Assembly (NCBI RefSeq): GCF_013348805.1
Contig: NZ_CP054690.1
Location: 1,860,001 to 1,924,000 of the forward strand
Direction of reading: 5' to 3'
Source of the DNA: Rhodococcus sp. W8901
GTDB lineage: Bacteria; Actinomycetota; Actinomycetes; Mycobacteriales; Mycobacteriaceae
DNA length: 64,000 bases
Shown here: positions 50,955-64,000 of the stretch, in pieces
How positions within the stretch are numbered: the stretch's first letter is position 1
How the letters are laid out: each line of letters begins with the position of its first letter
Notes under the pieces: generated by a model
Told to the model about the DNA's origin: nothing
Database searches by the model: none
Seen by the model: the letters and a program-made list of their open reading frames with translations, nothing else
Translations under genes and position numbers: made by a program

Positions 50955-51129
50955 CACCGATCTGCAGCGGACACGTATCGGATCGGTATCGACTTCGCGG
51001 ACCCGACGTGTCGTCCCGGTGGGGGCGACCGTCGGGTCTAGCGTTCGCGGCGGACGTGAACTACCGCGTAGCCGTCGTTGTCCGCACACCCGAGTCGAAA
51101 TCACGCGCCTGGGACGTGAGGGAGTCGTC

Positions 51130-51330
51130 ATGGAGTCCACCGCAATCAAGTTCGTTCTGCTGAGTCTGTTCCTGGTAGGTCTGGTCGTGGCCGGTGTCGG
51201 GGTGGCCGAACTGCACGTGCACGCCACGGTCGCGGCGCTGATCGTCGCGTCGGTGTCGGGGCTGCTGCTGCTCCGCATCCGGGCCGAATCGCACGGCCGC
51301 CTCGAGCCGCGAGGCCGAATCGCAGGCTGA
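51130..51330 (+). CDS. small membrane protein, two predicted spans
   Basis: A 66-residue hydrophobic protein. Two likely transmembrane helices, KFVLLSLFLVGLVVAGVG and ATVAALIVASVSGLLLL, are separated by AELHVH and followed by a basic tail (RIRAESHGRLEPRGR). No family recognised. ATG 51130 with GAGGGAG upstream is the natural start. Gene-like GC pattern supports coding. It stands alone between an SDR and a large unknown gene. Confidence 0.65.
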   Translation: MESTAIKFVLLSLFLVGLVVAGVGVAELHVHATVAALIVASVSGLLLLRIRAESHGRLEPRGRIAG

Positions 51331-51402
51331 CGGCGTCGTCGTCGCCACGCAGTTTCCGGATTTCTGGGACAGTGGTGGGCAGGAGCCCTTCGAGGAGGCG
51401 CG

Positions 51403-52581
51403 ATGCCTGCACCCGACCCGTCCGCCGCCGTGACCGAACGGCGCGCCCGTATCAACGACCAGGTCCGCCGCTGGTGTGAGCGTGCCCGGCTCGACGGCCG
51501 GCACCCGCCGCTGTCCGACGTCGCCGCGCTGTTGATCGCGGCGGGCCGAGTGGACGGGCCGACGCGGCAAGCCCTGACCGCCCGTCGTCGTGCGGGCCGG
51601 ACGATTCCGTCGATCGGCGGTTTCGGTGGTCTTCGCCTGCTCACCGACGAGCACGCCCGGCTTGCCACCCGGGCGGCGTCGTTGCGGCCCGGCCCGGTCC
51701 AGCTGGCGCACCGCTATCGCGCCGCGGAGCTGGCGAAACGTATAGACGGGCTGCGTTCGGCGGTGACGATGTCGAACATGCACTACGGCGGTGGCGTCCG
51801 GGCTATTCGCCGCGAGCGCCGTGACGGGGTGCATCTGGACCCCGGACAGCGCGACGCGCTGTTCGCGGCGTTGCAGCACACCCCCGCTCCGTTGCCGGTC
51901 GAACGGCGGCATCTGCACGAGTTCCGCAACGCGGTCCTCGAGTCGACGGCGCAGCGTGTGGCCCGGCTGTCCGAGCACACCCGGGCCGAGGACGTGGGTC
52001 GACGGGCGGTCGACGCGCTCGAACGTGCCGTGGAACCCGACGACGATCGGTTCGCCGACCGCTACGACACCCTGCTGTTCCTCGCCGGCTCGCTCTACGA
52101 CCGGATCGAGGGTTCTCCCGCATGGCATTCGGAGCACTTCGTGGTGCAGCGCGCGCAGCTGGATCTCGCGGAGGAGCTCACGCAGATTGCGGTCGACACC
52201 GTTGCGCTGCAAGGCATCCTCGGTGAACTCGACAACGCGCTCACCTCCACACCGGGTGCGCGCGACCACGTGCAGTCCCGCCACGACGCGTTGGTGCCGG
52301 TGTGGGACCAGCTGGTCGACCGGGTCGCTGCACTGGCCCGGATCGGGGACCTGTTGTCGCAGGCCGAGACCCAGCTCCAAGCAATGGCGTCGATGCGCTG
52401 GGCCACGAGCCTCGATACCCGGATCGACGATCTGATCGCCCGTTCCGGCAACCGCGAACTGTCGGCGGACAACACGCACCAGGTCGGCGATCAGTTCGGT
52501 GGCGTCGAGGAACTGATGGGCACGTATCGGAGCGCGTTGGGCGGGGACATCGCCGCGCTCACCGCCCGAGGTGAGTCGTGA
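51403..52581 (+). CDS. conserved hypothetical protein, helical
   Basis: No function recognised. A 392-residue soluble, mainly helical protein: VTERRARINDQVRRWCERARLDGR at the N-terminus (as two short helices), RVARLSEHTRAEDVG, DLAEELTQIAVDTVALQGIL and AGSLYDRIEG later on. A high helix content and Arg/Glu heptads between residues 150 and 340 suggest coiled-coil assembly. No signal peptide, no catalytic motif. GAGGAGG lies before ATG 51403. A short hairpin follows. It could be an actinobacterial cytosolic scaffold protein, but this is guesswork. Confidence 0.72.
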   Translation: MPAPDPSAAVTERRARINDQVRRWCERARLDGRHPPLSDVAALLIAAGRVDGPTRQALTARRRAGRTIPSIGGFGGLRLLTDEHARLATRAASLRPGPVQLAHRYRAAELAKRIDGLRSAVTMSNMHYGGGVRAIRRERRDGVHLDPGQRDALFAALQHTPAPLPVERRHLHEFRNAVLESTAQRVARLSEHTRAEDVGRRAVDALERAVEPDDDRFADRYDTLLFLAGSLYDRIEGSPAWHSEHFVVQRAQLDLAEELTQIAVDTVALQGILGELDNALTSTPGARDHVQSRHDALVPVWDQLVDRVAALARIGDLLSQAETQLQAMASMRWATSLDTRIDDLIARSGNRELSADNTHQVGDQFGGVEELMGTYRSALGGDIAALTARGES

Positions 52582-52624
52582 CCACCGGCATCAGGCCGTT
52601 GCCTCGCCGTCGAACCAGTCCCAT

Positions 52625-52644
52625 TGCCCTCCTGTCGGAGGGCA
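52625..52644 (+). terminator. possible intrinsic terminator
   Basis: TGCCCTCC-TGTC-GGAGGGCA, an 8-bp stem with a 4-base loop, 44 bp after the stop at 52581. Confidence 0.5.
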
Positions 52645-52675
52645 TTGACTGACTCGCAGACGCCCATGTATCCAG

Positions 52676-52687
52676 TGTTTTAAAACA
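52676..52687. promoter_or_regulatory. AT-rich perfect palindrome upstream of the unknown gene at 52761
   Basis: TGTTTTAAAACA is a perfect 12-bp palindrome in an AT-rich patch 73 bp before the next gene's start. It may be an operator; there is no matching regulator next door. Confidence 0.35.
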
Positions 52688-52760
52688 TTTGCAAGAAAAG
52701 GTCCAGGGGAGGTCCCCCGCATCAGGATCCCGCCCACCGCGTCTGCGAAATGGAGTCGAG

Positions 52761-53267
52761 ATGAATCCCAGTGGAATCGAGGCGTACCGCCTCGGCCGCA
52801 GCTTCGACGTCATGCCGATCCCGATGGATCTCGAGCACTGCGTCGAGGTGCCGGCAGGCCCGCTCACCTTCGTCGTCGAGTCGCGACGTCTCACCGACGA
52901 GGCCATCAACTCGAACGCGCGCGATCGGGGCCGTCCCGATGCCACGTACGACAGCGGCATCGACGACGGCGGCGCATGTGTCCACGTGCTCGGCACGGCA
53001 GATCGGCTGGAGCGCTTGCGCTTCGACTGTTTCGACAACGAACCGCACTACCACTACATCCATCAGTCCGAGCAGGTCAACGTCGTTGTGCGCTTCGACC
53101 AGTTCGCCGAGGGGGATCCCCGGGAATGGACTCTCGAACGTCTGCGCTCCCGCCTGCCCCACATGCTCGAACACCTCGGTTCGGTGGGACTGGCCGATGA
53201 GGTGCGGGCCGTGGATCTCAGCCCGGCGGTGGACGAGGTGGCGCGACTCCTCGACGTCGCCGGGTAG
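52761..53267 (+). CDS. conserved hypothetical protein
   Basis: No function recognised with confidence. A 168-residue protein with a beta-rich first half (FTFVVESR-like: PAGPLTFVVESRRLTDEAI) and the striking stretch RFDCFDNEPHYHYIH near residues 92-106, three His with Tyr that could bind metal, then VRFDQFAEGDPREW. It ends in an amphipathic helix that mirrors VDLSPAVDEVARLLDVAG. No signal peptide. ATG 52761 has GGAG upstream. Standing alone, it may belong to a family of small metal-binding proteins; that is inference from the His cluster only. Confidence 0.7.
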   Translation: MNPSGIEAYRLGRSFDVMPIPMDLEHCVEVPAGPLTFVVESRRLTDEAINSNARDRGRPDATYDSGIDDGGACVHVLGTADRLERLRFDCFDNEPHYHYIHQSEQVNVVVRFDQFAEGDPREWTLERLRSRLPHMLEHLGSVGLADEVRAVDLSPAVDEVARLLDVAG

Positions 53268-53378
53268 ACCCCGGCGGTCGCGCCCCGAGCCGATAGCGCG
53301 GACAGCGGGTGCAGCGCTACCGGTTTCGCGGCCGGCCGCATGCCAACCTGAGCACATGGCGTCGCGATTCGAGGAGAG

Positions 53379-53758
53379 ATGACGATGTTCGATCCCACCT
53401 GGGAATCGGTGTCCGGTCGACCGCTTCCGGGCTGGTACGACGGCGCCAAGCTCGGAATCTTCGTGCGGTGATCGGCAGCCGGCCGTAGACGACTGTTGCC
53501 GGAACGACGTCCGGGGGCACTCAGGTGCGGTACACCCGCAAGGGCTCCGACGTGTTCGTGTTCCTGCTGGAACTACCCGGAACCCGGCGCTTCACGCTGC
53601 GCGGAGTCGACATTCGTGACGTGGACGGGGTCGAACTGCTCGGCGACCCCGCCGCACTGGACTTCTCCACGATCGACGGCCAGCTTTCCGTCGAACTTCC
53701 TCCGCAGGTGTCCGTCTCGGCCACATACGTGCTTCGATTGGCGGGCGCGGCCGGCTAG
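53379..53758 (+). pseudogene. remnant of an alpha-L-fucosidase (GH29), internally deleted
   Basis: The 5' end is a 30-codon frame (53379-53471, RBS GAGGAGAG) reading [19 protein letters not shown] then AKLGIFV, exactly the start of bacterial GH29 alpha-L-fucosidases, and it breaks off where FVHWG would follow. The 3' part (53525-53758, another frame) reads VRYTRKGSDVFVFLLELPG and ends VSATYVLRLAG, the beta-rich fucosidase C-terminus. Some 350 codons including the catalytic nucleophile are missing, so this is a dead gene left by a deletion near 53466-53520. Confidence 0.8.
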
Positions 53759-53774
53759 CCGGCCACGTGCGGGT

Positions 53775-53927
53775 TCACCAGCCGCGCTCGGCGAGGCAGT
53801 GCGGCTGCGGGATGTCGTCGACGTTGATGCCGACCATGGCCTCGCCGAGTCCGCGGGAGACCTTCGCGAGCACGTCGGGGTCGTCGTGGAAAGTGGTGGC
53901 CTTGACTATCGCGCCGGCGTCCTCGGC
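53775..53927 (-). pseudogene. pdxS: 3' remnant of pdxS (pyridoxal 5'-phosphate synthase subunit)
   Basis: On the minus strand about 48 codons read [20 protein letters not shown], then [14 protein letters not shown] and [11 protein letters not shown] before the native stop. This is the unmistakable C-terminus of PdxS (family members have ~300 residues); everything before AIVKATTF is gone. It is the 3' end only, convergent with and 16 bp from the fucosidase remnant, and so cannot make the enzyme. Either a lost local pdxS or a fragment brought in with the neighbouring rearrangement; a working copy must exist elsewhere if the strain makes PLP this way. Confidence 0.85.
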
Positions 53928-54004
53928 CCCGTGGGGATGGTGTCGGGGGTGCTCCCAGCCGCTTCCTTCTTCGTTGGAACAGATTGGGGGAGTGGGAAAA
54001 ACGT

Positions 54005-54598
54005 TCAGCGCTCGGGGCGCGCAGCCATGCCGTCGAGGAAGACGGACATGCAGTCTTCGGAGAGTTCGCCGAGAGTGTAGGGGTCGTCCGGCCGGCGCCA
54101 GTAGACGGTGAACCACACCGAATCTCGAAGGAACCGGTGGAACACCTTGGAGGGTACGTCCTTTCGGAGAACGTCTGCGTCCTTGCCCGCCTCGATGGCG
54201 TCGAGCCAGATCGTCTGGATCTCGTCGGCGAGCGCGTTGGCTTCGGTGAAGTCGCGCAGCTTGCGAAGGTTGGGGAACTCGGCGTGATAGACCTTCGTCG
54301 CATCGGGACGGGCGGCGCCCATCGCGAGGGAGACGTCGACAATCGCCTTCAGCCGTGCGCGCGGCTCGAGCTGCTCGAGGCCGGTCACCCGATAGTTCGC
54401 GAGGAGATCCGAGAGGAACACCGTGACCAACTTGTTGACGATGGCGCCCTTCGACCGGAAGTAGTGGTAGAGCGCGCCCGCATTGATGCCGACCTCGTCA
54501 CCGATCTCGCGCATCGAGGTTCCGGGGATCCCGCGCGCGGCGAACAGGACGGCGGCGGCGTCGAGTATTTCGGACCTCCTGTCGGGGGCTTCGGGCAC
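54005..54598 (-). CDS. TetR-family regulator of the 54-61 kb cluster
   Basis: A 197-residue TetR repressor. The HTH is [17 protein letters not shown] then [21 protein letters not shown] (residues ~7-45); the rest is a helical ligand domain with [19 protein letters not shown] 54598 is preferred over a TTG further up, because AAAGGAA precedes it by six bases. It is divergent from the DegT-family gene. Its own promoter TTGACC-N18-TATGGT (54660-54631, minus strand) is followed at once by a site matched in the DegT promoter, so it should repress both. Related repressors respond to CoA thioesters; the ligand here is unknown. Confidence 0.93.
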
Positions 54599-54613
54599 GC
54601 GTGTTCCTTTCGT

Positions 54614-54629
54614 ATTGAACAATCATTCA
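54614..54629 (-). promoter_or_regulatory. TetR-type operator at the TetR promoter
   Basis: On the minus strand TGAATGATTGTTCAAT lies one base after the -10 TATGGT (54636-54631) of the TetR promoter, whose -35 TTGACC is at 54660-54655 with 18-bp spacing. It shares 14 of 16 bases with the site at 54760-54775. Confidence 0.75.
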
Positions 54630-54725
54630 AACCATAGTGCTGCCCGATGCTGCCGGTCAAAAGGAGGGTGGCGCGAGTGCTGTGACCGGCGCCTGCGCTC
54701 CTCCGGGGCTCGATTTCGTTTCGTC

Positions 54726-54775
54726 TTGACTGCTTCGGAAGGCCGTTCTATATTCGGCCTGAATGAACGTTCAAT
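54726..54775 (+). promoter_or_regulatory. promoter and TetR-type operator of the DegT-family gene
   Basis: TTGACT (54726-54731), 17 bp, TATATT (54749-54754) is a near-consensus sigma70 promoter. TGAATGAACGTTCAAT (54760-54775), containing the palindrome TGAACGTTCA, covers the expected start site. A matching site stands at the divergent TetR promoter. Confidence 0.82.
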
Positions 54776-54970
54776 GAGCGCCGTTCGGATATTGATCTGG
54801 CCTTCGCGGGCCCGGGCCGCTGCCGGAGTCGCCACCTCAGCCTGTGCGAATGGTGTAGGTGCGCAGAGTCTTCCGCGGCGTCCTGCGCTGCGACCGCCAC
54901 ACGAGGGTGTGCGAGGTGCCGAAACCCGACACCGCCGGACGCCTTCCGAGAAATCAACCGAGGAGATCCC
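54776..54970 (+). other. long untranslated leader of the DegT-family gene
   Basis: About 200 bp between the operator and the DegT start holds no convincing gene. A 66-codon frame (54774-54974) exists, but its composition is unlike coding sequence and it has no ribosome-binding site. No known riboswitch fold is recognised. Confidence 0.4.
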
Positions 54971-56194
54971 ATGACCAGGGTTGTCTACGCCCGAAGTGTT
55001 CACGACGAGCGCGAGATCGAGGCCTGCCTCGAGGTGCTGAGGGGAGGCCCGTTCGCCCTCAAGATCGGCAAGAACGTCGCCGAGATGGAGCGCAGGGTCG
55101 CTGATCTCTACGGCAAGAAGCTGGGCCTGATGTGCAACTCGGGTTCGTCCGCGCTGTACCTGGCGCTCGAACTGCTCGATCTGCCCAAGGGCTCCGAGGT
55201 GATCACCTCGCCGCTGACGTTCTCCACGGACGTCTCGCCGATCGTCCGCGGAGGCTGGATTCCGGTGTTCGTCGATGTCGAGCCGGACACGTACAACGTC
55301 GATGCGTCCAAGATCGAGGCGTTGATCACCGACAAGACCAAGGCGATCCTGGTCCCGAACCTGGCGGGCAATGCCCCCGACTGGGACGCGATCCGCGAGA
55401 TCGCCGACCGTCACGACCTCAAGGTCATCGAGGATTCGTGCGACTGCATCGGAACGACCCTCAACGGCACCAAGACCGGTTCGCGGTCCGACATCACCGT
55501 CACCAGCTTCGCGATGTCGCACATCATCACGTGCGCCGGTAACGGCGGCATGGTGTGCCTCGACGACGAGAAGCTGCGCGACAAGGGCCTCATGCTGCGG
55601 CGTTGGGGTCGCCGATCCGAGCCACACCTGTTCGGGTCCGAGCAGGCGCGGACCGGACGTGTGTTCCGCGAGAGCCTCGACGGCGTCGCGTACGACAACG
55701 ACTTCATCTTCGACGTCCTGCCCTGGAACTTCGAGCCGTCCGAGCTGGGCTCCGCGTTCGGCCTGGTCCAGCTGAGCAAGCTCGACGTGAACTACAAACG
55801 CCGCCACGAGATCTTCGATGCGTTCACTGCGGCCTTCGGCGCCTACCCGTCGCTGTTCCGTCTCCCCAAGCCGCTCCCGGGCTTCTATACCGCGTGGCTG
55901 TGCTACCCCGTCACGATCCGCGAGGATGCCGGGTTCGAGCGTTCGGACCTGCAGGAGTCGCTCGAGGGTGCGGGTATCGACACCCGAACGGTGTGGAGTG
56001 GCAATGTCACTCGACACCCGATGATGCGCAATGTCGAGTACCGCATTCCTGAGGACGGCCTGCCCTTCGCGGACGAGGTGTTCGAGCGTGGCATGTCCCT
56101 CGGGATGAGCCACGGCACGACGGACGAGGAACTCGATCATGTGGTGGCGAGCATCCACGCGTTCGCGTCCAAGTTCGTCGCGCCGCAGACGTAG
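54971..56194 (+). CDS. DegT/DnrJ/EryC1 family protein, 3-dehydrase-like (Lys replaced by His)
   Basis: A 407-residue fold-type I B6 enzyme. It follows the CDP-4-keto-6-deoxyhexose-3-dehydrase (E1/RfbH) branch: LMCNSGSSALYLALELL, PVFVDVEPDTYNVDA, KVIEDSCDCIG, and the active-site segment SFAMSHIITCAGNGGM, where the PLP-binding lysine is replaced by His184. That change is diagnostic of PMP-dependent dehydratases (E1, ColD) in place of transaminases. The Cys-rich loop binding [2Fe-2S] in E1 is absent here (RRSEPHLFGSE instead). GAGGAG precedes ATG 54971. It sits with catabolic genes, not sugar genes, so the substrate is an open question. Confidence 0.9.
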   Translation: MTRVVYARSVHDEREIEACLEVLRGGPFALKIGKNVAEMERRVADLYGKKLGLMCNSGSSALYLALELLDLPKGSEVITSPLTFSTDVSPIVRGGWIPVFVDVEPDTYNVDASKIEALITDKTKAILVPNLAGNAPDWDAIREIADRHDLKVIEDSCDCIGTTLNGTKTGSRSDITVTSFAMSHIITCAGNGGMVCLDDEKLRDKGLMLRRWGRRSEPHLFGSEQARTGRVFRESLDGVAYDNDFIFDVLPWNFEPSELGSAFGLVQLSKLDVNYKRRHEIFDAFTAAFGAYPSLFRLPKPLPGFYTAWLCYPVTIREDAGFERSDLQESLEGAGIDTRTVWSGNVTRHPMMRNVEYRIPEDGLPFADEVFERGMSLGMSHGTTDEELDHVVASIHAFASKFVAPQT

Positions 56195-56238
56195 CGCATA
56201 TAGGCGCCATTTCCGCCTGCGCAGAGTCCGTTCGTACC

Positions 56239-56268
56239 CGAGCCCCCGACTTCCGAGTCGGGGGCTCG
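56239..56268 (+). terminator. terminator after the DegT-family gene
   Basis: A 13-bp stem (CGAGCCCCCGACT / AGTCGGGGGCTCG) with loop TCCG, 45 bp after the DegT stop. Confidence 0.82.
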
Positions 56269-56343
56269 TCGCGTTCTCCGGGCCCGCGGTCCCGGAGATT
56301 CCCTGGTGTGGAACTGCGTTCTAGATGACCGCGAGACTTCCGC

Positions 56344-56371
56344 TTGACATTTGCATCTACCTCGCTAATCT
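56344..56371 (+). promoter_or_regulatory. promoter of the amidohydrolase-ACAD operon
   Basis: TTGACA (56344-56349), 16 bp, TAATCT (56366-56371): a consensus -35 with a good -10, 60 bp upstream of the GTG at 56431. It follows the DegT terminator, so the downstream operon is a separate transcription unit. No copy of the TGAATGA-type operator is seen here. Confidence 0.7.
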
Positions 56372-56430
56372 CGAAGGCAATCATATAGAACACGGTTTCA
56401 CATCGAGTAGTTTCATCAGGAGTGTCCATC

Positions 56431-57666
56431 GTGACGAACGAAACGCCCTACATCCTCATTTCAGCTGACAGTCATGCCGGTGCCGACCACGCCACCTACC
56501 GCTCGTACCTCGAATCGAAGTGGCACGAGGAGTTCGACACGTGGCGCGGAAAGTACAAGAACCCCTACCGTGACCTCGTCGACGACGGCCGAACCCGCAA
56601 CTGGGACAACGTGCGTCGACTGCGCGAGACGCAGGGTGACGGCACGGTCGGTGAGGTGCTGTTCCCCAACACGGTGCCCCCGTTCTTCCCGAGTGCCGCC
56701 GTGCTGGCGGGTCCGCCGCGGGCCGAGGACTTCGACAAGCGTCTCGCGGGCGTGCGCGCCCACAACCGCTGGCTGAAGGACTTCTGCAACGACGCTCCCG
56801 CCCAGCGTGCCGGCGTTGCGCAGGTGTTCCTCAACGACGTCGACGAGGCGATCAAGGACGTCGAGTGGGTCAAGGAGAACGGACTGCGCGGCGGCATCCT
56901 GCTGCCGAACCTGGCGCCCGACATCAAGTGGGTCAAGCCGCTGTACGACCCCGAGTACGACCGGTTGTGGAAGGTCTGCGAGGACCTCGGCGTCCCGGTG
57001 AACAGCCATGCCGGCACCGGTCTGCCGGACTACGGCCGCTACAAGACGTCGTCACTGCTCTACATCAACGAGGTCGGCTTCTACTCGATGCGTCCGCTGG
57101 TGCAGATGATCCTCTCGGGTGTGTTCGAGCGGTTCCCGAAGCTCAAGTTCGCGGTGTCCGAGCAGGGTTGTGCGTGGGCGCCGGATCTGATGCGTCAGCT
57201 CGACACGGTGGACCTGCGGGTCAAGCGCACCGGCCGGATCGGCGAGCTGTTCTACAGCGAGGACGAGCAGCTTCCGTTGCGTCCGAGCGAGTACTTCCGG
57301 CGCAATGTGTGGGTCGGTGCGACGATGCCGTCGGCGCAGGACATGGCGTCGCGCGACACGCTCGGCGAGGGCAAGTTCATGTGGGGCAGCGACTACCCGC
57401 ACAACGAGGGCACGTACCCGTTCACGCGCGAGTGCATCCGTCAGGTGATGCACGACGTCGACGAGACCGAGCTGCGGAAGCTGTTCGCGGCGAACGCTGC
57501 CGAGTTGTACGACTTCGACCTGGACGCGCTGGCCCCGCTGGCGGCGAAGTACGGCCCCACGCCGTCCGAGGTCGCCCAGCCGCTGACCGAGTTGCCCGAG
57601 AACCCCAACGACGTCCTGCTGCGTGAGTCCTTCGCCAAGCAGCTCGAAGCCGAGCTGAGCGCGTGA
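56431..57666 (+). CDS. amidohydrolase-family (PF04909-like) metal-dependent hydrolase, first copy
   Basis: A 411-residue TIM-barrel amidohydrolase of the ACMSD/COG2159 group. ISADSHAG (Asp13, His15) stands for the N-terminal metal motif, VNSHAGTG for the middle His, and FMWGSDYPHNEG for the C-terminal metal Asp, so a single metal site looks intact. These enzymes hydrolyse, hydrate or decarboxylate cyclic or aromatic acids. GTG 56431 is used because AGGAG lies eight bases upstream; the GTG at 56422 overlaps that site. Its stop overlaps the next GTG (GTGA). First gene of a coupled four-gene operon. Confidence 0.92.
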   Translation: MTNETPYILISADSHAGADHATYRSYLESKWHEEFDTWRGKYKNPYRDLVDDGRTRNWDNVRRLRETQGDGTVGEVLFPNTVPPFFPSAAVLAGPPRAEDFDKRLAGVRAHNRWLKDFCNDAPAQRAGVAQVFLNDVDEAIKDVEWVKENGLRGGILLPNLAPDIKWVKPLYDPEYDRLWKVCEDLGVPVNSHAGTGLPDYGRYKTSSLLYINEVGFYSMRPLVQMILSGVFERFPKLKFAVSEQGCAWAPDLMRQLDTVDLRVKRTGRIGELFYSEDEQLPLRPSEYFRRNVWVGATMPSAQDMASRDTLGEGKFMWGSDYPHNEGTYPFTRECIRQVMHDVDETELRKLFAANAAELYDFDLDALAPLAAKYGPTPSEVAQPLTELPENPNDVLLRESFAKQLEAELSA

Positions 57667-58523
57667 CTCGGCGGTTCGAGGGCCGTCGGGCGATCGTCAC
57701 CGGTGCCAGCCGCGGCATCGGCGCGGGTATCGCGCAGCGGCTGGCGGCGGAGGGCGCGGCCGTCGCGATCGTGGCCCGCACGGTCGACGAACCCGATCGC
57801 GGCTTCGACGGCACCCTGGCCCGGACAGCCGAGGTGATCCGCTCGGCCGGTGGCACGGCCGTGATCGTCCCGGCCGCGCTCGAGGATGCGGACTCCCGGG
57901 CCCGCATCGTCCCCGAGGCGGAGAAGGCACTGGGCGGGCCGATCGACATCCTCGTCAACAACGCGGCGGCGGCGATCTTCCAGCCGCTGCGGGATTACCC
58001 GTCCAGGCGTGCGCACCTGACGTTCGAGGTGAACGTCCATGCGCCGCTGGACCTCGCGCAGCGGGTGATCCCCGGCATGCGGGAGCGCGGCGCGGGGTGG
58101 ATCGTCAACATCACCAGCGGCACCGCCCGGATCCGGCCCGTCGAACCGCTCCCCGCGGGGGAGACCGACCTGGATGCCGACATCCACGGCACGACGCTCT
58201 ACGGCATGAGCAAGGCCGCCCAGGATCGGATGACAGCGGGGCTGGCCGCCGAACTGAACGGGACCGGGATCCGTGTCAACGCGGTGCGCCCACGCTCGGC
58301 CGTCGCGACGGCGGGGGCGCTGTCGGTGGCGTCGAACATGGTCGGTTCCAAGTGGTTCGTGCCCGAGTCGCTCGAGGAAATGGTCGAGGCGGTGACGTGG
58401 TTGTGCGACGCCGCAGCGCACTACACCGGCAACGTCGAGGCGAGCCTGGACATCCTCGAACGTGAAAGCATCACGGTCCGTGATCTGAATGGCAGGCCGA
58501 TCCTCAAGGAGCAGACCGTATGA
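57663..58523 (+). CDS. short-chain dehydrogenase/reductase in the catabolic operon
   Basis: A 286-residue SDR with TGASRGIGAGIAQRL, IDILVNNAAAAIF, catalytic Ser in NITSGTARI, YGMSKAAQDRM (Tyr-x3-Lys) and RVNAVRPRSAVAT. A ~20-residue insertion (PVEPLPAGETDLDADIHG) lies between the Ser and Tyr strands. Start GTG 57663 overlaps the amidohydrolase stop, and its own stop overlaps the next ATG, so translation is continuous. It would interconvert hydroxyl and keto groups of the pathway intermediate; its length and insert resemble hydroxyacyl-CoA-type SDRs of steroid pathways. Confidence 0.92.
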   Translation: MTRRFEGRRAIVTGASRGIGAGIAQRLAAEGAAVAIVARTVDEPDRGFDGTLARTAEVIRSAGGTAVIVPAALEDADSRARIVPEAEKALGGPIDILVNNAAAAIFQPLRDYPSRRAHLTFEVNVHAPLDLAQRVIPGMRERGAGWIVNITSGTARIRPVEPLPAGETDLDADIHGTTLYGMSKAAQDRMTAGLAAELNGTGIRVNAVRPRSAVATAGALSVASNMVGSKWFVPESLEEMVEAVTWLCDAAAHYTGNVEASLDILERESITVRDLNGRPILKEQTV

Positions 58524-59386
58524 CCCCCTACGACGGAATCCCGATCATCGACACCCACATCGGGTTTCGCGAGGCCGGGTACGACGAGTACGCCTTCATC
58601 ACGCGTCAGACCAAGGACCGGGAGAGTCGCGCCGAGTTCAGCATGCCCGCCCAGTACATGTTCAAGGGCGTGCCGGACGACCTCGACACCGACGATCCGA
58701 TCTCGGCGACGCTGCGGGAGATGGACAAGCACGGCATCGAGATCGGCATGGTCAGCATGGCCAAGGAGTCCGGGCAGAAGGCGGTTCGGCTGTTCCCGGA
58801 TCGCTTCGTTCCGCAGGGCTCCGCGGTGGACCCCAACGACATCATGGGCACGCTGACGCGGATGACGCGCGAGTACGAGGAGTTCGGCATCGTCTCGGTG
58901 AGTTCGTTTGCGGCGGGTACGTTCCCGCAGGTCGCGCTCAACGCGCCGCAGATGTACCCGATCTACGCCAAGTGCGTCGAACTCGACATCCCTATCTTCG
59001 CGTGTGCCGGGATCGCCGGACCGCGGGTCAAGTCCGCGGTGCAGCACGTCGAACTGATCGACGGCGTGATGTTCGACTTCCCGGACCTGGTGTTCGTCAC
59101 GCGGCACGGCTGCGAGCCGTGGGAGGACCTGGCGATCAAACTGATGCTCAAGTGGCCCAACCTCTACTACTCGACGTCCGCGTTCGCACCCAAGCACTAC
59201 CCGCAGGCCATCGTCGACTACGCCAACACCCGCGGCGCCGACAAGATTATCTACGCCGGGTACTTTCCGGCCGGACTGACGCTGGACCGGATCTTCGGCG
59301 ACATGCCGCACGTGCTGTTCAACGCCGACGTCTGGCCCAAGTTCCTGCACGAGAACGCCCGCAAGGTGTTGAAACTGAAAGGTTGA
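58520..59386 (+). CDS. amidohydrolase-family protein, second copy, altered metal site
   Basis: A 288-residue COG2159-type TIM barrel. IIDTHIGF (Asp11, His13) and VTRHGCEPWEDLAIKLM keep the first metal ligands, but at the C-terminal Asp position (GSDYP in the first copy) the sequence reads IYAGYFPAGL, with Tyr. It is 120 residues shorter than the upstream copy. It could bind metal differently, be inactive and act as a partner of the first copy, or catalyse hydration or decarboxylation. ATG 58520 overlaps the SDR stop (ATGA). Six bases separate it from the acyl-CoA dehydrogenase. Confidence 0.88.
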   Translation: MTPYDGIPIIDTHIGFREAGYDEYAFITRQTKDRESRAEFSMPAQYMFKGVPDDLDTDDPISATLREMDKHGIEIGMVSMAKESGQKAVRLFPDRFVPQGSAVDPNDIMGTLTRMTREYEEFGIVSVSSFAAGTFPQVALNAPQMYPIYAKCVELDIPIFACAGIAGPRVKSAVQHVELIDGVMFDFPDLVFVTRHGCEPWEDLAIKLMLKWPNLYYSTSAFAPKHYPQAIVDYANTRGADKIIYAGYFPAGLTLDRIFGDMPHVLFNADVWPKFLHENARKVLKLKG

Positions 59387-59392
59387 TCGGAC

Positions 59393-61594
59393 ATGCCGAT
59401 CGGTATCGGAGCCGACCACGACGCGCTCGCCGACTCCCTCGCGCGGTTCGCCGCGCGGACCACGCCCGTCGAGCAGACCCGCCTGCAGATCGCGGAACTC
59501 GGGAGAGGGGAGCGACCCGCCCACTGGGACCAGTTGGTGGGCATGGGTATTCCGTCCCTGCACATCGCCGAGGAATTCGACGGTGCCGGCGCCGGTCTCC
59601 TCGAACTGGCCGTTGCCCTCGAACAATCGGGCCACGGGCTGATTCCGGGCCCGCTGCTGCCGACGGTCACCGCGAGCGCCGTGATCCAGGCACACGGCAC
59701 CGACGCGGCGCGCAAGGCGTTGCTGCCGCGCTTCGCAGCGGGCGCGATCGGTGCGTGCGCTCTCGAACCCGGAACCGTCACGCTCGAGGGGGACGGCGAC
59801 GAGGTGATCGCTTCCGGGGCCACGGTTCCGATCCTGGGCGCCGTCGGTGCAGACATCCTGGTGCTGGCGGGTCAGTGCGGTGCGACGCCGGTGTGGTTCG
59901 TGCTCCCCGCCGACGCCGCCGGGATCGACCGAACCCCCGCAGAGGGCGTCGATCTCACCCGCGACATCGGACGGATCCATCTGTCGGAGGCCAGGATTCC
60001 TGCCGACCACATCCTCGGCGCGCTACCCGAGGAGGTGGCGTCGCTCGCAACTGTCCTGCAGTGCGCCGAGGCCGTCGGCATCGCCCGATGGGCACAGGAG
60101 ACGAGCCTGGCGTACGCGAAGATCCGCGAGCAGTTCGGACGACCGATCGGCTCGTTCCAGGCGATCAAACACAAGTGCGCCCAACTGTTCGTCCGTCTCG
60201 AGGTGATGACCAGTTCGGTGTGGGATGCGGCGATGGCCGCGGACAGCGACGACCCGCAACAGCTGGCACTCGCGGTGGCACGAACCGCGACGGTGTGCCG
60301 GCGCGAGGCCGTCGACGTGGTCCTGGACAGCCTGACGCTGCTCGGCGGCATCGGCAACACGTGGGAACACGACATTCACCTGTACTGGCGGCGGGCAGCG
60401 AGCCTGCTGGCACTCGGTGGTGCACAGGACGAGTGGGCGCGGCGCGCCGGCGAACTGGCGCTCACTACCGAGCGTCGGGCGGCTCTCGGCATCGAGCACC
60501 GTCCGGAATTCCGGGCCGGGGTGGCCGCGACGATCGCGGCGGCGGCCGCGCTGGATCCGCTGTCGGCACGGGTGTTGCTGGCCGACCGTGGTCTGGTGGC
60601 GCCGCACTATCCCGCGCCGTACGGGCTGGGTTCGGACACTGCCGGACAGCTCGTCATCGCCGAGGAGTTCGACCGCGCGGGGATGGTCCAGCCCACCACC
60701 GTCATCGGCGAGTGGGCGCTGCCGTCGATCCTCCAGTACGGCACCGGTGACCAGATGGAGCGGCTCGTCGCGCCGACCCTGCGCGGCGAGATCGTGTGGT
60801 GCCAGTTGTTCTCCGAGCCCGGTGCCGGCTCCGACCTGGCGTCGCTGACGACGTTCGCCACCAAGGTGGACGGCGGCTGGCGGATCGACGGTCGGAAGGT
60901 GTGGAACTCCAAGGCGCACGAGGCGCACTGGGGAATCTGCCTGGCCCGCACCGATCGCGACGTGCCCAAGCATCGGGGCATCAGCTTCTTCCTCGTCGAC
61001 ATGTCGGCGCCGGGCGTGGAGGTGCGGCCGTTGCGCGAGGCCAATGGCGACAGCATGTTCAACGAGGTCACGCTCGACGGAGTGTTCGTGCCCGACGCCG
61101 ACCTCGTCGGCACACCGGGGGAGGGCTGGAAGGTGGCCCGCACGACGCTCGCGAACGAGCGGGTAGCGATGGGCACCGCCCCGGTCGCCGGTGGCCACCG
61201 CTTCGATCCGGTCGAGGTTGTCCGTGCCCTCGACCCCGCAGCTCGGTCCGCGGCACTGCCCGCGCTCGGCCGGATCACCTCCGGGACAGGCGCTCTCGAT
61301 GCCCTCGCGCACCGGAGCATCCTCAAGCGGCTGTCGGGCCTGAATCCGGGGGTCGAGGCCAGCGCACTCAAGGCGGCGTCCGCGCGGCACATCACCGACG
61401 CCGCCGCGCAGGTGTTCGAGTGGTTCGGGCCCGAGGCCGCCGTCGGCAGCCTGGGGCCCGAGGTGGTGGGTGGAGGACGGGCCGCCAAGGCGTACCTTTC
61501 GACGCCGTCGCTGCTCATCGGCGGCGGCACGCTCGAGATCCAGCTCAACGTCATCGCCGAGCAGATCCTCGGGCTGCCGAGGGAACCTCGATGA
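59393..61594 (+). CDS. fused two-domain acyl-CoA dehydrogenase (FadE34-like)
   Basis: A 733-residue protein with two acyl-CoA-dehydrogenase modules. Residues ~1-355 have a degenerate middle domain but retain YAKIREQFGRPIGSFQAIKHK and LLGGIGNTWEHDIHLYWRR. Residues ~380-733 have the canonical LFSEPGAGSDLASL, IDGRKVWNSKAH, SMFNEVTLDGVFVP and GGTLEIQLNVIAEQILGLP. In actinobacteria this internal fusion, FadE34 being the best known, replaces the alpha/beta subunit pair and acts on bulky side-chain acyl-CoAs of sterols and bile acids. AAAGG precedes ATG 59393. The stop overlaps the ATG of a truncated SDR remnant. Confidence 0.92.
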   Translation: MPIGIGADHDALADSLARFAARTTPVEQTRLQIAELGRGERPAHWDQLVGMGIPSLHIAEEFDGAGAGLLELAVALEQSGHGLIPGPLLPTVTASAVIQAHGTDAARKALLPRFAAGAIGACALEPGTVTLEGDGDEVIASGATVPILGAVGADILVLAGQCGATPVWFVLPADAAGIDRTPAEGVDLTRDIGRIHLSEARIPADHILGALPEEVASLATVLQCAEAVGIARWAQETSLAYAKIREQFGRPIGSFQAIKHKCAQLFVRLEVMTSSVWDAAMAADSDDPQQLALAVARTATVCRREAVDVVLDSLTLLGGIGNTWEHDIHLYWRRAASLLALGGAQDEWARRAGELALTTERRAALGIEHRPEFRAGVAATIAAAAALDPLSARVLLADRGLVAPHYPAPYGLGSDTAGQLVIAEEFDRAGMVQPTTVIGEWALPSILQYGTGDQMERLVAPTLRGEIVWCQLFSEPGAGSDLASLTTFATKVDGGWRIDGRKVWNSKAHEAHWGICLARTDRDVPKHRGISFFLVDMSAPGVEVRPLREANGDSMFNEVTLDGVFVPDADLVGTPGEGWKVARTTLANERVAMGTAPVAGGHRFDPVEVVRALDPAARSAALPALGRITSGTGALDALAHRSILKRLSGLNPGVEASALKAASARHITDAAAQVFEWFGPEAAVGSLGPEVVGGGRAAKAYLSTPSLLIGGGTLEIQLNVIAEQILGLPREPR

Positions 61595-61674
61595 GCGCAC
61601 CGCCCCTCGCCGGCCGCGTCGCGATCGTCACGACATCCTCGCTACCGGTCTGTCACGGGACCGGCACAAGCTAG
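61591..61674 (+). pseudogene. 5' stub of a short-chain dehydrogenase
   Basis: A 27-codon stub starting MSAPPLAGRVAIVT, the usual SDR N-terminus up to the first strand, then unrelated sequence and a stop. The ATG overlaps the acyl-CoA dehydrogenase stop (ATGA), exactly as the operon's other genes are joined, so a fifth SDR gene was once cotranslated here. The break falls at about 61631, where an alcohol-dehydrogenase fragment begins. Confidence 0.7.
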
Positions 61675-62058
61675 GCCTCGCAACGGAATTCGGTGCCGAC
61701 GTGGTCATGGACGTCGAGACCGAGGATCTACGGGAGGTCGCTCGGCAGACGACCGGCGTCCGCAGATTCGACGTCGTGCTCGACACCTCGCCGCACGCCA
61801 CCGGTCCGCTGCTCGACGCGCTCGAGATCGTCCGTCACGCTCGAGAACATCCGGCTGATCCGGTGCGGCGGATCGAATGTGCAGGCCTGTCAGCAGGCGG
61901 CGGGAACTGTCGTATCCGGCCGATTCCCGCTCAGCCGCATGCGCACCCACGTCCTCGGCTTCGATCGGATCGAGTGCGGGATCGAACTGCTCCGCGGCGA
62001 CCACCCGGAGGAGTGTCCGATCAACATCGTGATCACCCCGACCGAGAGTGGTGCCTGA
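61632..62058 (+). pseudogene. decayed zinc-type (MDR) alcohol dehydrogenase fragment
   Basis: Two frames carry pieces of the cofactor domain and C-terminus of a medium-chain dehydrogenase. The first (61632-~61840) reads DILATGLSRDRHKLGLATEF then FDVVLDTSPHATGPLLDALE; the second (~61845-62058) reads GRFPLSRMRTHVLGFDRIEC, then EECPINIVITPTE. The catalytic N-terminal half is missing, and the join between the pieces lacks the expected middle. The near-duplicate CTCGAGATCGTCCG / CTCGAGAACATCCG at the switch hints at slippage. Non-functional. Confidence 0.8.
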
Positions 62059-62068
62059 CGGTCCGGGT

Positions 62069-62142
62069 TCCGTCCCGCGCGCAAGTTCGTCTGCCGCCCG
62101 CGCAATTGTGCGCGCGGGAGGCCGATTCGCGCGCGGGACGGA
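62069..62142. terminator. nested inverted repeats, probable bidirectional terminator
   Basis: A perfect 14-bp pair (TCCGTCCCGCGCGC at 62069-62082 and its complement at 62129-62142) encloses a second 7-bp pair (CCCGCGC / GCGCGGG). It separates the dead dehydrogenase fragment from the convergent excalibur gene. Confidence 0.6.
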
Positions 62143-62148
62143 TGCGGA

Positions 62149-62667
62149 CTATTCGCAGGCGATTCCGTCGTTGTCGCGATCCAGGTGTGGCGCATATCCG
62201 GCCTGGCCGCGGTAGATCGGAGTGACACCGGCATTGCGCGCCTCGGTGCAGTTCTTGTAGCCGGCTCGCGGCGCGGGAGCCGGCGCGGGTGCCGGAGCCA
62301 CGCGCGGACTGGCCTGGGGCGCGGGCGCGGGCGCGGGAGCAGGGGCAGGAGCAGGAGCCGGGGCGGGTGGTGCCGGTGCCGGCACGGGAGCGCCGACGAC
62401 ATGACCTGGAACCGGCGGCAGGACAGGGCGCAGCGCATCGGCGGATCCTGTGGGGATCATATTGGCGACCTCCAGCGGCAGAAAGTCGTGGATGGTGCTG
62501 GGGCGCATCGGCGTACCGGGGGGCCGGGGGCAACAACGGCTGCACGGCGTCGGCGATGAACTGCGGCACCACGGAGGCGCCCGGGGCGGGAAGGAAGTCG
62601 TGGATCGTTGTTGCCTGCGCCGCCGGTGGTTTCGGTGCGGCCGGTGATGTACGCTCTCGCGGTTCAT
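62149..62667 (-). pseudogene. excalibur calcium-binding protein gene, frameshifted and lacking its signal peptide
   Basis: The 3' part reads cleanly: a Pro-Ala repeat (PAPAPAP, ~30 residues) then YKNCTEARNAGVTPIYRG and HLDRDNDGIACE, the extracellular excalibur calcium-binding domain (DxDxDG) with its two Cys. Upstream, TTIHDFLPAPGASVVPQFIA and IADAVQPLLPPAP lie in a different frame; the switch falls in the G-runs at 62518-62530, and the two frames repeat the phrase IHDFLP. No signal peptide or good start exists in either frame. So the 5' end is broken or the homopolymers were misread. Confidence 0.7.
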
Positions 62668-62707
62668 ACGATGTCCGGCAGGGGGCCGGTTATTGGGGGA
62701 GTCTCAA

Positions 62708-63202
62708 GTGGCTGTCATTTCTTCGAAGAGTGTTCTCGTGCGGTCGACTGCCGTCGGCGTAAGCGCAGTGGTGATCGGTGTACTTGCTGGATGTGGTTCG
62801 GGAGAAACGAGTTCCGCGTCTGCAACGTCGACCACGGCCACGACCATGGCCGCCACTACGACGACGTCGGTCGTCGCTCCGGCACCCAGTGTTTCCGCGC
62901 CACCCGCCGCGGTCGTGACGCCGGAGGTCACACTGTCCACTCCCGTGGCGCCTCCGGCCCCAGCGCCGACACGGGTGCTCATGCCGGACGTGATGTGCAT
63001 GAACCTGCAGGACGCGCAGGATCTCATTCAGGCGAACGGTGTGTTCTTCTCCCGCAGCGCCGACGCGTCCGGCAAGGGCCGCAAGCAGGTACTCGACGCG
63101 AACTGGATCGTCGTCGGTCAGCAGCCGTCCGTGGGAGCGCCCGTCGGCGAGGCGGAGGCCGTGCTGTCCGTCGTGAAGATCGGAGAGCCGAGCCCCTGCT
63201 GA
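62708..63202 (+). CDS. lipoprotein with a PASTA-like domain
   Basis: A 164-residue lipoprotein. A basic start and hydrophobic stretch (RSTAVGVSAVVIGVLAGC) end in the lipobox LAGC. A ~60-residue Thr/Pro/Ala-rich linker leads to a C-terminal domain: LMPDVMCMNLQDAQDLIQANG, then NWIVVGQQPSVGAPVGEAEAV, the pattern of PASTA domains (VPDVxGxxxxxAxxxL, QxPxxGxxV), with an extra Cys pair (VMCMN and the final PC). PASTA domains bind peptidoglycan fragments. GTG 62708 has GGGGGAG six bases upstream. Confidence 0.88.
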   Translation: MAVISSKSVLVRSTAVGVSAVVIGVLAGCGSGETSSASATSTTATTMAATTTTSVVAPAPSVSAPPAAVVTPEVTLSTPVAPPAPAPTRVLMPDVMCMNLQDAQDLIQANGVFFSRSADASGKGRKQVLDANWIVVGQQPSVGAPVGEAEAVLSVVKIGEPSPC

Positions 63203-63210
63203 TCCCAGCT

Positions 63211-63237
63211 ACTGCGGTGCGCCGCTGCTACCGCAGT
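63211..63237. terminator. convergent terminator hairpin
   Basis: ACTGCGGT (63211-63218) pairs with ACCGCAGT (63230-63237) over an 11-base loop, overlapping the stop of the minus-strand gene. Confidence 0.5.
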
Positions 63238-64000
63238 TCGTCGGGGTCGTCGAACAGCGACGGCTGGACCGGGTCGTCGAACAGTTCCATCTGTTCGGGC
63301 GGGCTCCCCGGCTCCGGTTCCGGCACGAATGCCTCGGGAACCGTGTCGGCGCCCGATGTCTCGGGTGCCGTGGCCGGTTCGGCGGGCGGGAAGTGCAGCA
63401 CGCCGCCGAAATGCGCCGCGAACTCTTCGTCGACGCCGCCGAGGAAGTCCGACAGGTGCTCGACCATGTCGGCGAGGTGCTGCGGGACGAACGGGTCGGC
63501 GAGCATGTCGATCATGACGCGCAGCCGATCCTCGAAGAGGGCGAAGCGGAGATACGGCCAGCGCCGATTGAGGTCGGTGATGAGCTCGGATGCTCGTGTG
63601 CGGCCACTGATGTCGCGGACCAGGGGCGCCCACAGCTGCACCTCGGGTGTGCTCTCGTTCGCGATGACGAGAGCGAGTGCGGAGCCGAAGCGCAGGACCA
63701 CGTCACCGTCCGCGTCCAGTTCCGGCGCCTGCCCGTAGATGTCGGTCAGGGTGTGCGCGATCACCTCGCGCAGGTGGGCGGTGTCGCGGGGGCGGATCGA
63801 CACGTGCCGGTCGAGCGGTGTCCGGATGGGGGTGACGGCCGGATCCGCTGCCGGTTCGGGATCGCCCCCGAGATGGTGCAGGGCAAGGAATGCGGGGTGT
63901 GGCACGTCCCAGGTGTCCCGCAGGACCGACACCGCCATCGAGGCCAGCTGATCGGCCCAGCGCGCCGCCTTCTCGACGACGAGCGAGGGTACGTCGCCCA
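63228..64000 (-). CDS. YbjN/T3SS-chaperone-like protein, truncated by window edge
   Basis: The frame runs off the right edge, so only the C-terminal ~257 codons are seen and the start is outside. A mixed alpha/beta region (VVLRFGSALALVIAN, VQLWAPLVRDISGR, ELITDLNRRWPYLRFALFEDRLRVMIDM, cited as short segments of one domain) has the layout of YbjN / type III secretion chaperone-like domains in actinobacteria: beta strands, a long helix, then further strands. The tail is acidic and proline-rich (EPEPGSPPEQ, LFDDPVQPSLFDDPDE). Function unknown. An internal ATG at 63938 is not the likely start because the frame is open and protein-like beyond it. Confidence 0.75.
   Translation of the reverse strand, partial: GDVPSLVVEKAARWADQLASMAVSVLRDTWDVPHPAFLALHHLGGDPEPAADPAVTPIRTPLDRHVSIRPRDTAHLREVIAHTLTDIYGQAPELDADGDVVLRFGSALALVIANESTPEVQLWAPLVRDISGRTRASELITDLNRRWPYLRFALFEDRLRVMIDMLADPFVPQHLADMVEHLSDFLGGVDEEFAAHFGGVLHFPPAEPATAPETSGADTVPEAFVPEPEPGSPPEQMELFDDPVQPSLFDDPDELR

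Follow-up and report, generated by a model that had tools for sequence, protein, structure and literature searches.

What would an enzyme from a family known for its action on nucleotide sugars do in a gene cluster that holds no sugar genes? The question is raised by a protein of the DegT fold (DegT below) encoded in Rhodococcus sp. W8901, within a stretch of 64,000 nucleotides that we call the window (contig NZ_CP054690.1, positions 1,860,001 to 1,924,000; coordinates below are those of the window). Its gene stands between that of a TetR-family regulator and an operon for two PF04909 proteins (AH1 and AH2), a short-chain dehydrogenase/reductase (SDR) and a fused acyl-CoA dehydrogenase (ACAD). 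From its sequence and the neighbourhoods of its relatives, we consider DegT to be probably a pyridoxamine 5'-phosphate (PMP)-dependent alpha-dehydroxylase that acts in catabolism on a steroid-type substrate, meaning an oxygenated steroid or a closely similar polycycle. The locus as observed in an initial annotation of this DNA is confirmed, and its interpretation is partly supported: a catabolic, CoA-linked setting for a homologue of the PMP-type 3-dehydrases, away from sugar genes, has held up, while a sugar-acid substrate has not, as the setting points to steroid catabolism. The families it assigned to the six genes are borne out by Pfam, and all six lie at the following coordinates, with which the open reading frames (ORFs) of the window agree. 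The codon of the residue that replaces the lysine of pyridoxal 5'-phosphate (PLP) enzymes is included.

54005..54622, minus strand: TetR-family regulator of the TetR/DegT unit (Pfam TetR_N 61 bits, TetR_C_24 37 bits)
54971..56194, plus strand: DegT-fold protein of the His type, candidate PMP-dependent alpha-dehydroxylase, 407 residues (DegT_DnrJ_EryC1, 273 bits)
55520..55522, plus strand: codon of His184, replacing the PLP lysine (alignment to E1)
56431..57666, plus strand: AH1, first PF04909 protein, candidate dinuclear oxygenase of PtmU3/SfbO type (Amidohydro_2; PtmU3 match)
57663..58523, plus strand: SDR (Pfam adh_short)
58520..59386, plus strand: AH2, second PF04909 protein, no role assigned (Pfam Amidohydro_2)
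59393..61594, plus strand: fused ACAD, 733 residues (Pfam: each half of the single chain has acyl-CoA dehydrogenase domains)

The best solved matches of DegT are E1 chains (3bcx, 200 bits; 3bb8, 197 bits), followed by a perosamine synthetase (161 bits) and ColD-type chains (131 bits), and its best NCBIfam model is RfbH (NF011936; 264 bits, under the curated cut-off of 423). His184 aligns with the first histidine of the HHIT motif in 3bcx, the active-site histidine, and with a lysine in 3bb8, which we take to be the H220K variant of E1. The replacement of the PLP lysine, already seen in the initial annotation, extends to the whole group. Our alignment and tree comprise 72 rows (the window, 70 loci and one outgroup); L079 and L080 were too short for the tree and were left out, and the placement of L072, L073 and L074 is unsure. 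Histidine occupies the position in all 71 non-outgroup rows and lysine in none, and D155 is kept in all 72. Positions 208-236 of the window protein, which correspond to the cysteine-rich Fe-S stretch of E1, contain no cysteine in any of the 71 rows; within positions 150-170, 30 rows have two cysteines, 36 have one and 5 have none.

These features place DegT between two known kinds of enzyme. With E1/RfbH it shares the catalytic histidine and the closest sequence match; unlike them it has no cysteine-rich stretch, falls under the RfbH cut-off and has no cytidine diphosphate (CDP)-sugar genes nearby. With ColD it shares the exchange of lysine for histidine and the absence of an Fe-S cluster, although the sequence match is weaker and the substrate of ColD is a nucleotide sugar. 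A section of a review sets E1, ColD and SpnQ apart from aminotransferases by their active-site histidine, and describes ColD as lacking the four-cysteine [2Fe-2S] site (PMC8987622). Like ColD, DegT would be expected to require glutamate alone; in a C3-dehydratase of this type, according to part of another paper, PMP is regenerated with glutamate (PMC10440746). Because His184 is invariant in the 71 rows, because the E1 stretch is without cysteines and because of these statements on ColD, we expect the chemistry of DegT to be ColD-like and reductase-free.

The same residues bear on whether DegT could in truth be an aminotransferase, or else a relative that has lost catalysis and is retained for binding or regulation. 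Members of the fold family are mostly aminotransferases, and the H220K form of E1 is described in the review as performing a non-catalytic transamination (PMC8987622); yet the position of His184 holds no lysine in any of the 71 rows, and D155 is invariant. We argue that DegT is an active enzyme because it is strongly conserved across families, and both versions of this alternative seem to us improbable.

Does the missing sugar context hold beyond this genome? By eye, no nucleotide-sugar gene is recognised among the ORFs of the window from 51000 to 64000, as the initial annotation had also found. We scanned a species-genome collection with two peptide patterns, so that recall is partial, and obtained 66 loci; with six plasmid loci this gave 72. 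Several lie on short contigs, and many of the Rhodococcus rows are close kin. Marker genes in the flanks were counted by tblastn and background genes on custom gene calls. Six alphaproteobacterial loci (four plasmids and two genomes; 48-50% identical) have rfbF and rfbG adjoining DegT, by annotation or tblastn, and these six rows form one separate, fully supported clade on a long branch. In the fetched flanks of the 66 loci outside this clade, rfbF/rfbG were found in none. The initial annotation would have counted it against its proposal if DegT homologues lay mostly in deoxysugar clusters; that description fits the six-locus clade alone, and a deoxysugar setting for the DegT of the window is unsupported in the flanks of the other 66 loci.

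A sugar substrate could nevertheless be imagined, either a CDP-sugar whose synthesis is encoded at other places in the genome or the sugar moiety of a plant glycoside. The nearest characterised families are nucleotide-sugar 3-dehydratases, and those PMP-dependent 3-dehydratases that are named in the section of the review act on nucleotide sugars (PMC8987622). The alphaproteobacterial relatives with rfbF/rfbG fit this idea, as does a Rhodococcus erythropolis plasmid locus (L009) in which an inositol-type sugar cluster lies about 7.5 kb upstream of DegT. Set against it are the count of 0 of 66, which covers flanks, CDP-sugar genes elsewhere in the window's genome not having been searched; the separation of the rfbF/rfbG rows by their long branch; and the RfbH score, under the cut-off. 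On this evidence we regard action on a sugar as quite unlikely. The alphaproteobacterial relatives (L011, L012, L013, L014, L075 and L076) are of interest for another matter: in their CDP-glucose clusters they too are without the cysteine-rich stretch of E1, so these clusters may encode a 3-dehydratase of ColD type that serves CDP sugars and needs no reductase.

If not sugar genes, what accompanies DegT? An Ltp2-type aldolase gene lies within 130 bp of it in 27 of the 66 non-sugar loci, and in the flanks of these 27 we found a FadA5-type thiolase (27), a fused ACAD (27), a ChsH2-like gene (26) and a ChsH1-like gene (25). The linkage of DegT to genes of a CoA-dependent route, proposed in the initial annotation, is thus conserved. 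The Ltp2-linked rows form one clade, save that L037, a row from another context, falls inside it, and they come from Nocardiaceae, Nocardioidaceae, Geodermatophilaceae, Streptosporangiaceae, Thermomonosporaceae, Nakamurellaceae and Tomitella. Curated cut-offs were applied to the neighbours in one of these loci, L051 of Rhodococcus globerulus, where a PRK07855 lipid-transfer protein (654 bits, cut-off 469) and a steroid 3-ketoacyl-CoA thiolase (593 bits, cut-off 515) pass them; ChsH2 zinc-ribbon and OB domains are also present there, as is a FAS1-type dehydratase. The L051 aldolase matches the lipid-transfer protein of 6ok1, presumably the Ltp2 complex of T. curvata, at 563 bits. The gene order there is TetR (divergent), ChsH1-like, ChsH2-like, MaoC-like, Ltp2-like, DegT, SDR, thiolase, fused ACAD, ACAD and ACAD. 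The igr/casL-P steroid side-chain operons have the same ChsH1/ChsH2-like genes, Ltp2-type aldolase, ACADs and FadA5-type thiolase; the Ltp2-linked loci differ from them by the DegT gene next to the aldolase, and a table of Rhodococcus jostii bile-acid genes lists casL-P and no aminotransferase-type gene (PMC8399759). At least two over-cut-off copies of Ltp2 are present in 9 of 10 Ltp2-linked genomes, and one in Geodermatophilus chilensis, so most tested carriers have a second side-chain aldolase besides the one linked to DegT, by a count in which copies were not mapped singly.

Because DegT lies inside or beside steroid-breakdown genes in many soil actinobacteria, a steroid substrate is suggested. 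The chemistry, substrate and order of steps that we infer would be as follows. PMP on DegT would form an imine with a ring ketone, His184 would take a proton, and the hydroxyl on the adjacent carbon would leave; hydrolysis would yield the deoxy-ketone, and glutamate would convert PLP back to PMP with no Fe-S reductase. The substrate would be an oxygenated steroid under degradation and not a nucleotide sugar. In Ltp2-linked operons the retro-aldol step would make a C17 ketone, and our guess at the most economical target of DegT is a hydroxyl on the neighbouring C16. Such hydroxyls could come from plant spirostanes, steroidal alkaloids, 16-hydroxylated animal steroids or bile acids, and 16-oxygenated steroids are common. 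In the genus of the window, DegT under its own TetR would work with the separately controlled AH1-SDR-AH2-fused ACAD operon. That DegT strips a 16-hydroxyl beside the 17-ketone left by Ltp2, with glutamate as the electron source, and so feeds the androstenedione pathway, is something we put forward tentatively and think rather doubtful; we propose it because DegT adjoins a 17-ketone-making aldolase and the chemistry needs a hydroxyl next to a ketone, which are its sole bases.

If DegT does act on steroids, it would be, to our knowledge, the first E1/ColD-type enzyme with a substrate other than a nucleotide sugar, and a steroid-catabolic branch would widen the range of PMP-dependent dehydratase chemistry. 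It would also offer a path for steroids that carry an additional ring hydroxyl, such as diosgenin-type saponins, steroidal alkaloids and 16-hydroxylated bile acids, and a candidate biocatalyst for regioselective steroid deoxygenation. Were the C16 proposal correct as well, actinobacteria could channel steroids of plants and animals that are oxygenated at C16 into the usual androstenedione pathway. We found no DegT gene placed in steroid catabolism in the literature, most subscription journals being outside the search, and by a term count both 'DegT' and 'aminotransferase' are absent from the main texts of PMC7807495, PMC10398937, PMC8399759, PMC8708139, PMC9782250, PMC10653915 and PMC8281962.

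How does the cluster of the window relate to the Ltp2-linked loci? DegT is an accessory gene: matches at E 1e-100 or better occur in 9 of 298 genomes of the order, its own included, where it is one of two near-full-length DegT_DnrJ_EryC1 matches. It is 95-99% identical to genes in records of Prescottella or Rhodococcus, R. hoagii among them. AH1 lies beside DegT in 10 of the 66 loci, eight from Nocardiaceae and two from metagenome-assembled genomes of Acidimicrobiaceae (53-54% identity, with AH1 divergent from DegT-SDR). Both PF04909 genes are kept with DegT in eight of the 66, so the co-occurrence expected in the initial annotation stands for AH1 and is narrow for the pair; seven of the eight hold the full AH1-SDR-AH2-fused ACAD set, and the eighth (L079, with DegT in pieces) runs out of contig. 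In the tree, 8 AH1 rows, window included, fall with 18 of 28 other-context rows into one supported clade of 26, whose members outside the AH1 loci are 79-91% identical to the window DegT and come mostly from Nocardia and Saccharopolyspora. Among 14 genomes of the genus, DegT (92-100% identical) and an orthologous fused ACAD (83-100%) are both present in 9 and both absent in 5. Because AH1 and AH2 are kept with DegT in 8 loci and DegT and the ACAD are concordant in 14 of 14 genomes, the set appears conserved beyond chance.

Loci L015, L016, L017, L019, L040 and L080 belong to genomes G002, G005, G001, G003, G007 and G004, and L124 and L040, being one contig, were counted once. Among the nine genomes with both genes, G004 has no intact DegT but pieces of it at three contig positions, which may stem from two gene copies. 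In this record (Prescottella equi DSM 20307, L080) the start of a DegT gene (98% over 47 residues) follows VOC and SDR genes near a sulfatase-like gene.

Five genomes of the genus carry a KshA-like oxygenase gene in the vicinity of the cluster. In L015 and L016 its distance from DegT is about 7 kb; in L123 and L124 it lies on the far side of the fused ACAD, the L124 copy being a fragment at the contig edge; and in G009 (L120, 85% identical) it is 272 bp from DegT, beside the TetR-DegT pair. The L015 protein matches 4qdf, a 3-ketosteroid 9alpha-hydroxylase, at 631 bits.

The enzymes encoded downstream of DegT add to this picture. AH1 matches PtmU3 best (95 bits), followed by DitZ (78), the putative hydrolase 4dzi (60), 5-carboxyvanillate decarboxylase (43) and SfbO (8sm6; 34) in the PDB. 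Numbered from the GTG at 56422, which the ORF list uses as its start and which overlaps an AGGAG (we take the start as 56431), residues H18, H196, H327, E217, E247 and D324 are identical in 10 of 10 loci; five fall on identical PtmU3 residues, and H18 lies outside that alignment. PtmU3, AibH2 and SfbO belong to the PF04909 'AROs'; the two metals of SfbO are bound through three histidines and three carboxylates, and other PF04909 enzymes bind one metal or none (PMC10811679). The six residues are thus candidate metal ligands. Because they match the ligand count of SfbO (PMC10811679) and five of them fall on PtmU3 residues, AH1 is a candidate dinuclear oxygenase, so that its place in PF04909 stands while its initial reading as a hydrolase fits less well. 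By eye, no small Rieske partner of the AibG type was recognised in the cluster, no dedicated search having been made. AH2 shows no AH1-like ligand set; its best PDB match is the uncharacterised 3irs (62 bits), and its predicted model has a mean predicted local distance difference test score (pLDDT) of 44 and is unusable. The first half of the fused ACAD matches Tcur3481 and chain 4x28_D, the second Tcur3483 and 4x28_A, chain types that we assume to be steroid enzymes.

Several observations weigh against a steroid substrate. To the nucleotide-sugar substrates of the characterised relatives and the inositol-type cluster of L009 must be added the ACAD itself, since several other dehydrogenases score as high as or higher than the Tcur and 4x28 chains and its best PDB match, 8hk0 (127 bits), does not bear the name of a steroid enzyme. 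The KshA-like protein of L015 falls short of every NCBIfam cut-off; around the cluster, no KshA was detected in the window, L017, L018, L019 or L122; and the window's own cluster contains none of Ltp2, KshA and KstD; the two over-cut-off Ltp2 copies of this genome are both elsewhere. Nor do DegT and an SDR form a universal module for turning a diol into a ketone: a same-strand SDR gene lies within 100 bp of DegT in 33 of 66 loci, as against 56 of 592 background genes, which is enrichment and not universality. An SDR about 50% identical adjoins DegT in many Ltp2-linked loci. The flanks of the 29 other-context loci hold SDR (21), VOC (12), IclR (10), one MFS type (9), KstD/KshA (7) and sulfatase-like genes (2), so KstD and KshA were not in the fetched flanks of 22 of the 29. 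The seven loci that do have one of the two count in favour of a steroid, and one KstD in this group scores 1032 bits (cut-off 793). An SDR of the group, from L052, falls into the carveol dehydrogenase family, matching 5ej2 at 246 bits. The record of L058, Rhodococcus sp. IEGM 1379, carries a cyanobacterium label in the tree, probably a database slip.

Part of this evidence could mean that DegT dehydroxylates some other non-sugar ring, such as a diterpenoid, a triterpenoid or a cyclic alpha-ketol, with the steroid genes representing general machinery that is partly shared. The best structural relatives of AH1, PtmU3 and DitZ, are presumably diterpenoid enzymes; flanks free of KstD/KshA in most other-context loci suit such a substrate; and some loci carry a gene of Baeyer-Villiger type, whose 297 bits to PtlE are below the cut-off of 1100, or an F420-type gene (225 bits, cut-off 213). 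What speaks for a steroid over these rings is the adjacency of Ltp2 and FadA5 in all 27 Ltp2-linked loci, above curated cut-offs in L051, the one locus scanned, and the KshA-like gene that adjoins TetR-DegT in G009. We therefore rate another ring as unlikely, though it deserves to be kept in mind, and hold to the steroid-type substrate as the probable one.

Is the set of six genes a single unit? The stop/start overlaps and small gap noted in the initial annotation between 56431 and 61594 are present, with 4-base overlaps at AH1/SDR (57663/57666) and SDR/AH2 (58520/58523) and a 6-base gap at AH2/ACAD (59386/59393). Its proposal of one TetR-controlled cluster, in contrast, did not survive. The control features are:

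54726..54754, plus strand: DegT promoter, TTGACT-17-TATATT (10 of 12 consensus bases)
54759..54774, plus strand: palindromic operator-like site CTGAATGAACGTTCAA, just 3' of the -10 of the DegT promoter (window and 7 of 7 aligned relatives)
54615..54630, minus strand: second operator-like site, at the TetR start (within 2 mismatches of the DegT-promoter palindrome)
56239..56268, plus strand: 13-pair hairpin after DegT, terminator-like, with no T run (61-nt stretch at -36.2 kcal/mol, z -5.2)
56309..56323, no strand: operator-like palindrome TGGAACTGCGTTCTA of the second operon (TRRAACNNNGTTCTA shared by 6 of the 9 gaps aligned, that of the window among them)
56343..56371, plus strand: promoter of the second operon, CTTGAC-17-TAATCT (CTTGAC in 9 of 9 aligned gaps)
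56386..56400, no strand: operator-like palindrome TAGAACACGGTTTCA of the second operon (TAGAACNNNGTTTCA shared by all 9 gaps aligned, that of the window among them)

The stretch from DegT to AH1 thus carries a hairpin, a promoter and operator-like sites that differ from those of the DegT promoter, and in G009 a distance of about 60 kb separates TetR-DegT from AH1-SDR-AH2-ACAD, both with control regions of their own. On these grounds the window set is, as read from its sequence, two transcription units, TetR/DegT and then the AH1-SDR-AH2-ACAD operon, and we rejected a single joint operon under one TetR. DegT stays beside TetR where the cluster splits in G009. At the DegT promoter, CTTGAC and TATATTC-type blocks are common to the window and 7 aligned relatives, and the palindrome TTGAATGAACGTTCAA differs by a single base in the window and in L079. 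Across the 5.7 Mb genome, 3 sites match it with no more than 2 mismatches, two of them in the TetR-DegT region (reversed control, 0); the third, at 5260340, falls where a large regulator-like gene ends, and by eye we recognised no steroid gene there. The palindrome also occurs near DegT-group genes in L009 (1 mismatch), L022 and L029 (2), and L021 and L052 (3, which may be chance). A hairpin like that after DegT was seen by eye in 7 of 9 aligned DegT-AH1 gaps and was not picked up by a T-run scan. In the second operon, whose promoter was not listed by a stricter promoter scan, TRRAACNNNGTTCTA is 1-2 bases off in L016, L079 and L121, and the TAGAACNNNGTTTCA palindrome has 4 genome sites within 1 mismatch, 2 of them in the DegT-AH1 gap (reversed control, 2).

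Two over-cut-off Ltp2 copies lie elsewhere in this genome, and no regulatory tie between the window and the genes around either was found. One copy belongs to a side-chain operon at L112 (G000:C1:841974-851550), together with a fused ACAD, ACADs and ChsH-like genes; an exact KstR-type palindrome immediately precedes this operon, and a sulfatase-like gene (95 bits, cut-off 481) comes after it. The genes at L112 are 83-93% identical to those of L080, where the VOC-SDR-DegT set begins at the contig end. The palindrome, TAGAACACGTTCTA, has 4 exact sites in the genome and 24 within one mismatch (control, 6), and fits the KstR motif TnnAACnnGTTnnA, a string taken from its occurrence in PMC1995591. 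A link from the window genes to the L112 operon was considered and not found; the DegT promoter palindrome differs from the KstR-type one. The other Ltp2 copy lies among genes that resemble, by eye, the usual cholesterol side-chain set.

Beyond the window, about 12.6 kb downstream of the cluster end, a flavoprotein gene (G000:C1:1934158-1935696; L114:18159-19697) matches the PRK12837 'FAD-binding protein' at 982 bits (cut-off 675), with KstD models below their cut-offs. Upstream of the cluster, 52752-53267 encodes a DUF7700 protein (114 bits) outside the conserved set. Downstream, a frame at 61470-62225 looks, by eye, like a piece of a broken alcohol-dehydrogenase-type gene, and because of it this edge of the cluster appears rearranged relative to L015 and L016.

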